DNA of 64,000 nt from Nitrosomonadales bacterium (GCA_016235045.1 JACRME010000021.1:26595-90594); one strand, 5' to 3'. Shown: positions 50,875 through 56,351, counted from the stretch's first letter. Notes: generated by a model not told the origin, from the letters alone. A program made the numbers and translations.

Positions 50875-51189
50875 TCACGCCAGCATTTCAAGCAACACTG
50901 GATGCCACTTTGCCAAGTCGACCTCGCCCATTTTTCCGGCCAAGCGGCGCTTATCCACCGAACGCAATTGATCGAGCAGGATGCGGGCAGATTTGCCTGC
51001 GAATTTGACTTCCGGGCGGCAACCAAGCGGTTGTCCCTGGCTGGTGAGTGGGGCGATGATCACGCGCGGCAATGCGGCGTTCATGTCGTCGGGCGAGACG
51101 ATTAATGCGGGGCGTGTTTTCTTGATTTCGGTGACGATGGTTGGGTCGAGGTTGACCCAATATACCTCGCCGCGCTTTACCACACCCAC
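50875..51189 (-). CDS. MazF/PemK-family endoribonuclease toxin
   Basis: KRGEVYWVNLDPTIVTEIKKTRPALIVSPDDMNAALPRVIIAPLTSQG. Confidence 0.93.
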   Translation of the reverse strand: MGVVKRGEVYWVNLDPTIVTEIKKTRPALIVSPDDMNAALPRVIIAPLTSQGQPLGCRPEVKFAGKSARILLDQLRSVDKRRLAGKMGEVDLAKWHPVLLEMLA

Positions 51190-51413
51190 TCCTCCCCCCC
51201 TTCGTCTATAGGCAAGATTGCAAGCGGTTCGGCATCGGTTTCCGGCAGATAACCTGTGAACCAGTCGGCACGGGGAGCGTTGATAGGGGCGATCACCAAA
51301 TTTTTACCTTCCAATCGAATATCCACTTCTTCGCCCATTTCGCATGCAGCCAGAAGCGCTGCCGGAATGATGACCCCGCGGGAATTTCCCACTTTTCTCA
51401 AATTGGTACGCAT
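51177..51413 (-). CDS. MazE/AbrB-family antitoxin
   Basis: MRTNLRKVGNSRGVIIPAALLAACEMGEEVDIRLEGKNLVIAP; 3' end overlaps toxin start. Confidence 0.92.
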   Translation of the reverse strand: MRTNLRKVGNSRGVIIPAALLAACEMGEEVDIRLEGKNLVIAPINAPRADWFTGYLPETDAEPLAILPIDEGGEEWVW

Positions 51414-51498
51414 GACCTTCTCCAAAACGCAATGTGGTAACTATGTTATAACACGCTTCATCAACAAAGCAAGGGGTGCTTTGCGGCTCGACATCAGT

Positions 51499-52281
51499 TC
51501 ACTCCACCATGCCGAGATAGGCGATCAGCGCATCCAGGGTGAAAACGAACAGCAGGCTTTGCAGCACGGCCTTGATGGCGACCTTGGGCACTTCGGTCAC
51601 CGAAGGCTGGGCCTGCATGCCGTTGTAGCAGGAGATGGTGGAGATGGCCAGGCCGAACAGGCAGCCCTTGAAGGCAACCACGGCGAATTCGGACAATTTG
51701 ACGGTTTGCAGGAAGCGTCCAACCTGATCGAGGTAGGACACGTTCTGGAACATGGCGCTGACTGCCAGCCCGCCGCCGATGGCAACGACCTGGAAATAGA
51801 TGGTGAGCGCCAGTACGGCCAGCGTCACCCCGGCAATGCGCGGTACCAGCAGGTAATCGTCCGGCGGAATGCCCATGCGGCTGAGACTGGTCATCTCGTG
51901 GCGCGTCTTCATCAGCGCCAGTTCGGAAGCGATGGCGGAACTGCTGCGCGCGATGATGATGATGGCGGCAAACAGCGGGCCGACTTCGCGCACCACGGTC
52001 CAGATCAATATCTTCACGGTCAGTTCGCTGTTCCCGCCGACCAGCGACGTGATCTGGGTGATCACCAGCGCGCCGCTCAGCAGACCGAACACGGCAACGA
52101 TGCGCAAGGCTTCGACTCCGGTGAAAAAGATTTGCCGGTGAAACACGGCGTTGACCGGGGCAATGCGCAACACGCGCAGATGGGTCGAGGCATACCACAG
52201 CAACTTGAAACAGCCGATCACCGTCTGGCGCATCCGCACCATCTTCAGCCATTCGATGAATTTCGGCCAGAAGGCAAGCAT
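51499..52281 (-). CDS. MlaE/YrbE-family ABC transporter permease
   Basis: MLAFWPKFIEWLKMVRMRQTVIGCFKLLWYASTHLRVLRIAPVNAVFHRQIFFTGVEALRIVAVFGLLSGALVITQ...REVGPLFAAIIIIARSSSAIASELALMK; ATG overlaps preceding stop. Confidence 0.88.
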   Translation of the reverse strand: MLAFWPKFIEWLKMVRMRQTVIGCFKLLWYASTHLRVLRIAPVNAVFHRQIFFTGVEALRIVAVFGLLSGALVITQITSLVGGNSELTVKILIWTVVREVGPLFAAIIIIARSSSAIASELALMKTRHEMTSLSRMGIPPDDYLLVPRIAGVTLAVLALTIYFQVVAIGGGLAVSAMFQNVSYLDQVGRFLQTVKLSEFAVVAFKGCLFGLAISTISCYNGMQAQPSVTEVPKVAIKAVLQSLLFVFTLDALIAYLGMVE

Positions 52282-54068
52282 CACTTTTCGGCCAGCAGCG
52301 GCGGGTTCCAACCGAACACATGCAGCGGGACGCCTTTGACGGATTGCTCGCCGCAATCATCCAGGCCGCCCGAATGTTCCACCGCCTTCGCTACTTCGGC
52401 AGAGCACACGACGGGATACTGGAGTGTCCTGGTCAATTCTTCCAGCCTGGCGGTCAGGCTCACCACATCGCCAATGACCGTGTATTCATGGCGCAACTTC
52501 GATCCGATATTGCCGATGACCGCCTCACCCATATGCAGTGCGATGCCGATCTCGATGGGCGCCATCCCCTGTTCCCGCAACCGCGCATTGACCAGGCGCA
52601 GGCGCAGCAACATTTCCTGCGCCGCCTCGAGCGCGTTCTTTTCCGGACATTCCAGCACTTGCGGCGCACCGAAGAAAGCCATGACGCCATCGCCGATGAA
52701 CTTGTCCACCGTGCCCCGATGCTGGTGGATCGCCACGGTCATTTCGGAGAAATAATCGTTGAGCAGGGCGACCACTTCTTTTGCCGGCTGCTTCTCGCTG
52801 CGTTCGCTGAAACCGTGAATGTCGGCGAACAGGATGCACAGCCGGGCGCGCGTTCCCTCCAGGCCGGAATGGATGCTGCCTGCCATGATCTCCTGCAGCA
52901 CTTCCTGGCTGACATAGCTGCCGAAGGTGTCGCGCAACCAGTGGCGTTTCTGCACTTGCAGGACGCCTCCATAGAGCAGGCGCGCAAAAAAGGCGAATAC
53001 CCCGGCGTACACAATGCCGCCCACGGGCAGATACAAGCCCGCCCCCAACTGCCAAGCGGAAATCTGGAACATCAAAAACGGAAAGGCGATCAGTGCGGCA
53101 AGCTTGACCCAACTGAAGCGTCCCAGCCAGAACAATGCCGCGAGCACAGTCAGCATTCCCACCGCAAAATCGCTTGCTTCGCGTATCAAGCCGCCGCCCA
53201 GCATCGAGCGCAATATCTGCGCCTGCATCAATACACCGGGAACGCGCAGCTTGAGCGGATCCCACGCTGCCAACGGAACGGGCGCCCTGACGCGGTCGCC
53301 AAACCTGGACACCACTCCCAACAGCACCGGCTTGCCGCCGAAAGTGCCGGCCAGTTGCCCGGCGTTGCCCTGCTGCTGCCATTCCAGCACCTTGAGGAAA
53401 GGGACGTATTCGAATTTATCGCCGGCGCTGAAATCCACCAGCCCGATTCCGGGATTCGCCTGACCCAGGTGTGCCGCCATCTTTTCGACCAGCATGGTAC
53501 CGCGCGCATTCACCGTACAGCGGTTGGGATCGAAGCGACGCACCACGCCGCCTTCATCCGGACAAACCACGACCGACGCCAATGCATCCGCTCCCGCTGC
53601 GGAAACATAGGGGGCATGAACCGGACGGAACGCGCCGCTCTCGTCCAGCATCTGCGCCAGCACCAGCGGAGTGTGTGCTTTCAGTTCCCGCAGCCCTTGC
53701 ACCAGGCTCTGGTCGTATTGCGGAATGAGGAATTGGTAGGAGCGTTCCGGCAGGGCGATGTCCAGGCCCAGCACGGCGGGCCTGGCTGTCGCCATCGCAT
53801 CCAGAAATTTGCCGAGGTGCGGATGCCACAGGGCAAAGGGTTCCTTCAGCACCTTGGTGGCTTCCTCATCGATGCCTACGACAACGACATCGTTCTGCAG
53901 GCGATGCACATCGTGCCGATGCATCCGGACAAATTGCCGGTCCAAAAGCGCAAGGCTCAACTGCTCGCCAACTTGAAACAAATGCAGCAGCAACGCGACC
54001 AGCAAACAGAATCCCAGCCCCAACAGGGAATGTACTTTCGGGTCGTTCAGCCGCTTCAACGCTTCCAT
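52281..54068 (-). CDS. CHASE2-domain class III adenylate/guanylate cyclase
   Basis: 595 aa; CHASE2 VVVVGIDEEATKVL...RPAVLGLDIALPE, three TMs, cyclase ARLCILFADIHGFSERSE...GTVDKFIGDGVMAFFGAP...EYTVIGDVVSLTARLEEL. Confidence 0.92.
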   Translation of the reverse strand: MEALKRLNDPKVHSLLGLGFCLLVALLLHLFQVGEQLSLALLDRQFVRMHRHDVHRLQNDVVVVGIDEEATKVLKEPFALWHPHLGKFLDAMATARPAVLGLDIALPERSYQFLIPQYDQSLVQGLRELKAHTPLVLAQMLDESGAFRPVHAPYVSAAGADALASVVVCPDEGGVVRRFDPNRCTVNARGTMLVEKMAAHLGQANPGIGLVDFSAGDKFEYVPFLKVLEWQQQGNAGQLAGTFGGKPVLLGVVSRFGDRVRAPVPLAAWDPLKLRVPGVLMQAQILRSMLGGGLIREASDFAVGMLTVLAALFWLGRFSWVKLAALIAFPFLMFQISAWQLGAGLYLPVGGIVYAGVFAFFARLLYGGVLQVQKRHWLRDTFGSYVSQEVLQEIMAGSIHSGLEGTRARLCILFADIHGFSERSEKQPAKEVVALLNDYFSEMTVAIHQHRGTVDKFIGDGVMAFFGAPQVLECPEKNALEAAQEMLLRLRLVNARLREQGMAPIEIGIALHMGEAVIGNIGSKLRHEYTVIGDVVSLTARLEELTRTLQYPVVCSAEVAKAVEHSGGLDDCGEQSVKGVPLHVFGWNPPLLAEK

Positions 54069-54075
54069 CGCGGCC

Positions 54076-54873
54076 TCACTTCACCGCAGTCGCGGCGATG
54101 CGCGCCGCGCGGTCGCGGAATTGCGCGGCCTGCTCGACACGGCCCGATTTCTCATGGGCCTGCGCCGACAGCAGCAAATCCTGGCGAATCTTTTCCGGCA
54201 AGCCCAGCGACTTGTCGATGACCAGCGCCTCTTCCAGCAGGCGCAGCGCGCTGTCGTTTTCGTTCTTGAGCAACCTGGCCGAAGCCGCGAGCCGCAGTGC
54301 GTTGGCGTATTCGAGCGGCGATTCCCCCTTATTCGCCGCGGCGGCGCGTTCGCTCCAGTACAGCGCTTGCTCTGCATCCTTCTCATGCAGGGCAATGCTG
54401 GCGCGGGCATTGTCGATCACGCCGGCGAGGAGGCAATCCGTTGTGCACCAGGCTGCCGCCTTGTCCGCCCAGATCGTTGCGCCCGCCACATCGCCATCCT
54501 GCAGGCGCAACAAAGACTTTTGCACTGCGGCAGCGGCCAGATGCTGTGGAGCATACTGAAGCGACTTGTCTTCCAGCAGGCTGTCCAGAAAGCGCTGTGA
54601 CAGCGCACTATTTCCCAGAACCTGATTCACCTTGGCCAGATTGAGCATATTGATCGCGATACCGTTCACATTCTCGACCGCGACATCCAGTTGCAATGCG
54701 TTCTCGTAGAAAGCGGCGGCTACCTGATATTCGCCGCGCTGGTAAGCGCGCTGGGCGCGCTGATTGAACTCGGTAGCCTGTTCCTGCCTTGCACTGCGCG
54801 TCTCCTCCACGTGGCCGCACGCAGCCAACAGTCCGATGCTGCACAAGAGAGAAATGGCTAACCGGAAACCCAT
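54076..54873 (-). CDS. Lipoprotein with TPR-like helical repeats
   Basis: MGFRLAISLLCSIGLLAACGHVEETRSARQEQATEFNQRAQRAYQRGEYQVAAAFYENALQLD. Confidence 0.82.
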   Translation of the reverse strand: MGFRLAISLLCSIGLLAACGHVEETRSARQEQATEFNQRAQRAYQRGEYQVAAAFYENALQLDVAVENVNGIAINMLNLAKVNQVLGNSALSQRFLDSLLEDKSLQYAPQHLAAAAVQKSLLRLQDGDVAGATIWADKAAAWCTTDCLLAGVIDNARASIALHEKDAEQALYWSERAAAANKGESPLEYANALRLAASARLLKNENDSALRLLEEALVIDKSLGLPEKIRQDLLLSAQAHEKSGRVEQAAQFRDRAARIAATAVK

Positions 54874-54883
54874 GCGCCCCCCG

Positions 54884-55783
54884 TCACGGTTGTTTGGGCG
54901 CAATGTAGCCGTCCACTGGCAACGCCCGCTCTTCGGGTGCCGGGAACAGGCCGTTCAACAGCCAGGATTTCTTCACGCCGCCCAGGGTCTCCTGCCCGTC
55001 CTGCACCAGTGCATTGCTGTTGCGCACCAGCGAGGGAATTTCCGCAGCGGACTCATTGGTGATCTTTTTGATATCGGCGGTGGCGGATTGCACGTTGTCC
55101 AGGGTCGAATCGGCTTTGTCCACCAGTTTCGGGATGGCCTTATCCAGCGTCTCCAGAGTGGAATTCATGCGATCCATCGCTTTGTTGCTGCTGACGCCAA
55201 GCCGGGTGAACTGGTTCACCGTCTCGTGGAAATCCCCGGTCGCACGGTTGAGGTTGCGCATCGTCTGCTGGATATCGCCCGAAGACGTGATCTGGCGGAT
55301 GTCGCTCAGGATGGGCTGCAACTGCGACGCCAGATTCTCCACAACGGTGCTGGCATCCTGACCGCGCTCGAATTCCAGCACGCTATTGCGCGAAACCTGT
55401 TTCACTTGCTGCGAGCCGGGAATGATCTCCACCACGCTCTCGCCCACCAGCGCCTCCTTGACCAGCCTGGCCTTGGCGTCCTGCCCGATGAGGTGAACGT
55501 ACTCGTTGTCCAGGGACACCTCGACCTGCACTGTCGCGTTGGGCTGCATGCTCACGTCTTCCACGCTGCCGACCTTGAAACCGATGAATTTGACCGCCAT
55601 GCCTTTGCTCAGACCTTGCGCATTGGGCGTAAAAAACAATATCGGCGTACTGCGGTGGAAATAATTCTGCCTGACCGCAATCATCAGCAGCACCAGCAGC
55701 AAAACACCGGCTGCACCCAGCATGAACCGCTGCGTGCGCTTCTCGATGGTCAGCAATCTCTGGTTGTAATTGGGCAGTTTCAT
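54884..55783 (-). CDS. MlaD/MCE-domain protein
   Basis: 299 aa; single N-terminal TM; PILFFTPNAQGLSKGMAVKFIGFKVGSVEDVSMQPNATVQVEVSLDNEY; coiled C-terminal region. Confidence 0.9.
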   Translation of the reverse strand: MKLPNYNQRLLTIEKRTQRFMLGAAGVLLLVLLMIAVRQNYFHRSTPILFFTPNAQGLSKGMAVKFIGFKVGSVEDVSMQPNATVQVEVSLDNEYVHLIGQDAKARLVKEALVGESVVEIIPGSQQVKQVSRNSVLEFERGQDASTVVENLASQLQPILSDIRQITSSGDIQQTMRNLNRATGDFHETVNQFTRLGVSSNKAMDRMNSTLETLDKAIPKLVDKADSTLDNVQSATADIKKITNESAAEIPSLVRNSNALVQDGQETLGGVKKSWLLNGLFPAPEERALPVDGYIAPKQP

Positions 55784-55796
55784 GTCGAATAGGTGT

Positions 55797-56351
55797 CTAT
55801 AACTGGATCACGATCTGCTTCGGATTGTCCTTGTCGCGGTATTCCTCGAAACTCACCAGCACCGACGTCCGGAACGGGAAGTATAAACGGAATACCTTGT
55901 CGAATCTGACCGTGCGAGCCAATTCCTTGCGCGACAGGCCTTCGATCAGGGAATCGTAAATGATCAGTTCCGGACTCATCAACATGGCGCGCACGAAACC
56001 GACCAGGCGCTTTTCATACAGCGACAATTGATCGGGCAGTTTGAACAGCAGATTGGACACGGCAGCCTCGTCCTCCAGACCGCACTGAATCAGCAGTTGC
56101 GCCACGTTGTCTTCCAGTTTCCCGGCGACCTCGATGCCATGATACTGCACCGGCAGGACGATGTTCTCCCACACGCGCAGGTTGCTGATCAACCCACCGT
56201 TATGAGGGACAATCACCACACCGGGCTGGTCGCCCAGGTTTTTGAGCAGGGCGGAACGCTGGGATTCGGAACGGACAACGAGGCAATACGAATAGCCCGA
56301 TTGCAGCAGGGCCTGGGTACCTTCTTCTCCATGCAGGCTCAATGTGAACAT
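55797..56351 (-). CDS. Degenerate ABC-ATPase-like protein lacking a Walker A motif
   Basis: MFTLSLHGEEGTQALLQSGYSYCLVVRSESQRSALLKNLGDQPGVVIVPHNGGLISNLRVWENIVLPVQYHG...LLFKLPDQLSLYEKRLVGFVRAMLMSPELIIYDSLIEGLS; Q-loop-to-Walker-B-like architecture, no GxxGxGKST. Confidence 0.75.
   Translation of the reverse strand: MFTLSLHGEEGTQALLQSGYSYCLVVRSESQRSALLKNLGDQPGVVIVPHNGGLISNLRVWENIVLPVQYHGIEVAGKLEDNVAQLLIQCGLEDEAAVSNLLFKLPDQLSLYEKRLVGFVRAMLMSPELIIYDSLIEGLSRKELARTVRFDKVFRLYFPFRTSVLVSFEEYRDKDNPKQIVIQL

Follow-up and report, generated by a model that had tools for sequence, protein, structure and literature searches.

An MlaE/MCE operon of Gallionellaceae with a conserved MlaF-like pseudo-ATPase and a degenerate CHASE2 cyclase

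The operon and its products

We analyzed a 64,000-nucleotide stretch of DNA (the window) of a Nitrosomonadales bacterium (GCA_016235045.1, JACRME010000021.1:26595-90594), which is part of a 3.1-Mb draft genome of the Gallionellaceae; the nearest named loci are those of Sideroxyarcus, Gallionellaceae and Sideroxydans metagenome-assembled genomes. The minus strand of the window carries a contiguous operon of five genes (51499-56351), which encode, in the order of transcription, (i) an MlaF-like nucleotide-binding domain (NBD) without Walker A (P0001, 184 aa; 55797..56351), referred to below as the pseudo-ATPase, (ii) an MCE protein (P0002, 299 aa; 54884..55783; PF02470, E-value 4e-15), (iii) a lipoprotein with tetratricopeptide repeats (TPR) (P0003, 265 aa; 54076..54873), (iv) a protein composed of CHASE2, transmembrane and class III cyclase-like parts, which is predicted to be catalytically impaired or dead (P0004, 595 aa; 52281..54068; PF05226, E 3e-22, and PF00211, E 6e-18), and (v) an MlaE-family permease (51499..52281; PF02405, E 2e-48). 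The first three junctions measure 13, 10 and 7 nt, and at the fourth the stop codon of the cyclase gene overlaps the start of mlaE (TGATG). A sequence-only reading of the window had listed these genes in this order, with short or overlapping junctions; all of the open reading frames were found, and Pfam confirmed the MCE, CHASE2, cyclase and MlaE domains. The arrangement is kept in 26 of the 34 genomes of the genus, and it is therefore not a product of chance.

The MCE protein has one N-terminal transmembrane helix, one MlaD/MCE domain (residues 47-123) and a long helical C-terminal part (approx. residues 144-271). The TPR lipoprotein, which was recognized by its lipobox and by matches to TPR families (weak in Pfam), showed no match to the PqiC-type family in Pfam or NCBIfam. 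Its lipobox (LAAC) is followed by Gly, and nearly all of the loci have Gly, Ser or Ala at this +2 position. According to the usual +2 rule, such residues point to the outer membrane, which is where the sequence would place this protein. An alignment of the permease (MlaE2) and canonical MlaE continues through the coupling-helix region. One row of alignment A5 (L025) was found to be wrong (a TPR stretch), which did not affect the conclusions.

A conserved family of MlaF-like proteins without Walker A

The pseudo-ATPase P0001 matches the Pfam ABC_tran model below the threshold (19.7 bits; cutoff 25), and does so at residues 44-133, i.e. only downstream of the Walker A position. Its best sequence match in the PDB is MlaF of P. 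aeruginosa (E 3e-5), and the AlphaFold2 model (pLDDT, the predicted local confidence score, of 92.2; built from 33 family members) is closest in fold, among PDB structures, to MlaF of Acinetobacter MlaFEDB (TM-score 0.76), followed narrowly by other MlaF structures. P0001 is thus an MlaF-type NBD. Alignment with the canonical MlaF of the same genome revealed that GGSGCGKTT, the Walker A loop of MlaF, is replaced by VRSESQRSA (residues 26-34; 56250..56276, minus strand), and that the Q-loop Gln, the LSGG signature, the Walker B Glu and the H-loop His have also been lost.

Other positions are strictly conserved: N57, L58, E62, N63 and R121 are invariant in 33 sequences, and the first four lie within a stretch matching the MlaF segment that follows the Q-loop. 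This segment of P0001, NGGLISNLRVWENIVL (residues 51-66; 56154..56201, minus strand), aligns with the near-permease MlaF stretch QFGALFTDMSVFDNVAF, and the permease-facing segment is retained in the pseudo-ATPases as NL..(W)EN..LP. In the structure of MlaFEDB, the contact with MlaF is mediated by the coupling helix of MlaE (PMC7790496), and the conserved N57-N63 stretch may be the surface that docks on MlaE.

A profile search of 100 relatives, and subsequently of 399 genomes of the order, separated true members of the family (at least 78 bits) from ordinary ATP-binding cassette (ABC) proteins (at most 72 bits). Members were found in five families of the order (f1, f5, f15, f22 and f33), and Walker A is missing from all of the approx. 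30 order-level members recovered by the profile; those compared motif by motif are also devoid of the Q-loop Gln, the LSGG signature and the H-loop, and show no conservation of the Walker B Glu. One row of the motif comparison (L063) proved to be an unrelated ABC protein, without consequence for the conclusions. In the same five families a four-gene set recurs, usually in the order MlaE, pseudo-ATPase, MCE protein, TPR lipoprotein. The protein in the ATPase slot therefore belongs to a conserved family of MlaF-like pseudo-ATPases, and the absence of Walker A characterizes a lineage of transporters. The suggestion that an MlaE/MCE system carries a Walker-A-less protein in its ATPase slot was thereby borne out, and extended to a whole family with the MlaF fold.

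The dN/dS values of the pseudo-ATPase (0.03-0.17) reveal purifying selection, which, together with the existence of the conserved family, rules out a frayed gene or pseudogene. An intact ATPase hidden by a wrongly assigned start codon was rejected as well, since only 28 further codons are available upstream before the reading frame runs into a tRNA gene, and since relatives with longer N-terminal parts equally lack Walker A.

In a survey of the phylum (150 genomes searched with an MCE profile) the same four genes, including a Walker-A-less protein, were identified in a family of another class (f78). This protein is homologous to the pseudo-ATPase (hhalign 97%, E 6e-11) and to ABC NBDs (E 1.5e-9). 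In the two f78 genomes that were inspected, the four-gene set lies downstream of mlaC and of a gene for a protein of approx. 1,025 aa, all within one co-directional run (L193 and L194:1303-11492, minus strand). The order in one f78 genome (G490) is mlaF, mlaE, mlaD, mlaC, YhdP-family gene, MlaE2, pseudo-ATPase, MCE protein, TPR lipoprotein, HATPase, STAS. YhdP is known to participate in the movement of phospholipids to the outer membrane. The MlaE-linked NBDs of families f86 and f82 (L175-L180) keep Walker A and have an LTxEQ-like signature, Asn in place of the Walker B Glu and no H-loop His, so these proteins are possibly intermediates that bind ATP and do not hydrolyze it. The f75 NBD keeps Walker A, the Glu and the His, and that of f81 is intact. 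The series f81, f75, f86, f82 and f78 looks like a graded erosion of the NBD, in which the number of Walker A losses is not fixed by the MlaE tree, whose deep forks are weak and whose branches are long.

Occurrence and decay of the CHASE2 cyclase

The cyclase gene is present in 24 of the 34 genomes of the genus, always alongside the pseudo-ATPase (26/34), and not one genome has the cyclase alone. Two of these 24 genomes have the genes on different contigs, with one copy cut by a contig end, and linkage there is presumed. One member of the genus (G032) has, between the TPR and mlaE genes, a cyclase remnant of 66 codons with an N-terminal transmembrane segment (L153:3389-3589, plus strand), and another (G021) has the operon with no cyclase at all. 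Outside the genus, the same cluster lacks the cyclase in all of the genera and families examined, and in G058 the gene order is otherwise that of the window. The insertion of a CHASE2 cyclase before mlaE is therefore peculiar to this genus among those examined (24 of 26 operons). Conservation of the cyclase in homologous MCE clusters, the lack of which the sequence-only reading had named as a refutation of its proposal, holds for these 24 operons and not beyond the genus, nor for the two congeners with a stub or no gene.

The six catalytic positions of P0004 read DKDDSR (metal Asp, Lys, metal Asp, Asp, Ser in place of Asn, Arg). D416, K456, D460 and R541 are retained, and the transition-state Asn is replaced by Ser537 (codon 52458..52460, minus strand). 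In the genus as a whole, none of the 23 operon copies keeps the transition-state Asn and Arg together, and the metal Asp has been lost in approximately four lineages (G011, G018, G023 and the clade of G006, G009, G015, G017 and G033). In the other homologues compared, which include stand-alone CHASE2 cyclases of Desulfobulbaceae and of a gammaproteobacterial symbiont, the Asn is found in 9/9 and the Asn with the Arg in 8/9. The catalytic Asp residues are likewise kept in stand-alone homologues, and each of seven further class III cyclases encoded by this genome retains the metal Asp pair together with the Asn. The cyclase domain has lost catalytic residues and yet has a dN/dS of 0.06-0.16, also within the clade lacking the metal Asp, which strongly suggests that in most of the genus this protein is a maintained pseudoenzyme. 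As far as can be judged from the residues, local production of cAMP or cGMP by the operon is unlikely, and the proposal of the sequence-only reading that the transporter is regulated by cyclic nucleotides made on site found no support in a cyclase domain that is degenerate genus-wide.

We also considered a Pycsar anti-phage system, and rejected it: the PycC model matches the shared cyclase domain only (E 2e-27) and the other operon products have no PADLOC match.

As for the surroundings of the operon, a tRNA-Val gene lies directly upstream, and genes for a MazE-like antitoxin (PF04014) and a MazF/PemK-like toxin (PF02452) are located immediately downstream, before thrS (50875-51425, minus strand).

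A putative lipid conduit and its relation to known systems

We propose that the operon encodes an MCE lipid conduit in which a dead motor NBD is kept as a structural or gating subunit and the cyclase has decayed to a non-catalytic role; we give this reading a probability of roughly 0.55. The MlaE-type permease in the inner membrane would form the base of a trans-envelope conduit, a presumably hexameric MCE protein would extend a helical needle across the periplasm, and the TPR lipoprotein would be placed at the outer-membrane end. The pseudo-ATPase, with its ATP-binding and hydrolysis motifs lost and its MlaE-facing segment kept, would stand in the motor's place, and the putative lipid substrate would be moved without ATP hydrolysis by the system itself, as in PqiABC and LetAB. 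The CHASE2 cyclase would have been inserted before mlaE in this genus, its catalytic site having decayed since, i.e. later than the loss of the motor site; the resulting protein, which appears to be dispensable, would most likely serve in the periplasm as a sensor or scaffold rather than make cyclic nucleotides. The reading is built on the gene order and its conservation, the loss of motifs in both proteins, purifying selection, the fold of the NBD and the link with canonical mla and YhdP genes in a distant lineage.

Several points weigh against it. The helical part of P0002, i.e. the supposed needle, is of low confidence in the monomer model, in which the MCE domain is confident. P0004 of the window lacks only the Asn of the catalytic set and, judging by this, could have weak residual activity. 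Transport, binding to MlaE and the nature of the substrate are matters that we infer. Finally, all 37 genomes tested that carry the system have an intact canonical MlaF; a genome with the system and without this protein was sought, and none was found among the 37.

The last point favors the rival that survives best, namely that the permease is driven by a borrowed motor (canonical MlaF or, where present, an orphan MlaF), with the pseudo-ATPase as a regulatory subunit, either competing with this motor or keeping the permease closed. The source genome has a separate canonical mlaFEDC and, on contig C29, an orphan MlaF gene (L155:5131-5928, plus strand), whose product has an intact Walker A and 58% identity to canonical MlaF, with no adjoining permease or MCE gene. 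Of the 19 well-assembled genomes of the genus that bear the operon, all have a canonical MlaF and 10 have an orphan MlaF without a permease. In addition, the alignment of MlaE2 with canonical MlaE extends through the coupling-helix region, and the co-directional run of f78 includes mlaF, upstream of the four-gene set. However, the orphan is missing from the other 9 of these 19 genomes, which rules it out as an obligate partner, and its distribution follows the species tree. Moreover, since neither Walker A nor the signature is present in the pseudo-ATPase, not one ATP site would be complete in a mixed dimer with MlaF. We regard a borrowed motor as less likely than the dead-motor reading.

It is clearly less probable that, in line with the repurposing idea of the sequence-only reading, the complex is a sensor and no longer a transporter, with the CHASE2 protein, the TPR lipoprotein and the MCE ring reporting the state of the envelope, the permease serving as an anchor, and no cyclic nucleotide being made. 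The retention of two enzyme subunits despite lost catalysis would fit such a role, but permease, MCE protein and lipoprotein persist in all other genera examined, which have no CHASE2 part, and in two congeners that have lost it, and the gene context in f78 is that of lipid transport. Least probable of all is an active cyclase regulating the transporter via locally made cAMP or cGMP, since the low dN/dS and the retention of both metal Asp residues, the Lys and the Arg in the window copy are set against the Asn-to-Ser change, the absence of the Asn-Arg pair from every copy of the genus, the repeated loss of the metal Asp, the stub and the missing gene, and the presence of the Asn in stand-alone homologues and in the other cyclases of the same genome.

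A broader proposal can be made, which we advance tentatively and at somewhat less than even odds: a branch of MlaE/MCE systems in at least two classes of the phylum would operate without ATP hydrolysis, with the NBD as a scaffold or gate, the conduit working beside the ATP-driven Mla pump and possibly in the opposite direction, and one genus would have recruited a signalling enzyme that then became a second pseudoenzyme. Both catalytic sites are lost and both proteins are under selection, which suggests a whole lineage of MCE transporters working without ATP hydrolysis of their own. The system bears on two open questions, the direction and the energetics of MCE lipid transport. Since every member of this natural MlaE/MCE system has lost its motor site, and since there are possible intermediates that keep Walker A without the hydrolysis residues, the role of ATP in MlaFEDB could be tested directly, as could passive conduction of lipid by MlaE.

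We found no description of this system in the open-access literature searched, and its parts resemble those of several known systems. With Mla (MlaFEDB plus MlaC and MlaA) it shares an MlaE-family permease, an MCE protein with an N-terminal transmembrane helix and an NBD of the MlaF fold. It differs from Mla in that the NBD lacks Walker A, the signature, the Walker B Glu and the H-loop, that none of the five products is an MlaB, MlaC or MlaA (Pfam, NCBIfam), and that the MCE protein has a long helical tail and is accompanied by an outer-membrane-type TPR lipoprotein and the cyclase insertion. The chimeric Mla-Pqi system of Brucella (Mpc) is similar in having a compact permease, an MlaF-like protein, a needle MCE protein and an outer-membrane lipoprotein, and no MlaC (PMC12436622). 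In Mpc, however, the MlaF homologue is well conserved, the permease carries a STAS domain and the lipoprotein is of the PqiC type (PMC12436622), whereas the present operon has a degenerate NBD and a TPR-type lipoprotein with no PqiC-family match. PqiABC and LetAB represent MCE transport without ATP hydrolysis of its own, and an outer-membrane lipoprotein is part of Pqi as well (PMC12436622, PMC10897342); PqiA and LetA have no ATPase domain (PMC12436622). The present system differs from these in having an MlaE-family permease instead of PqiA or LetA, a single MCE domain and a pseudo-ATPase. Finally, CyaD1, CyaD2 and CyaK of S. meliloti (PMC13001267) have the same combination of CHASE2, transmembrane helices and a class III cyclase fold as P0004, which is distinguished from them by its degenerate catalytic residues and its linkage to an MCE operon.

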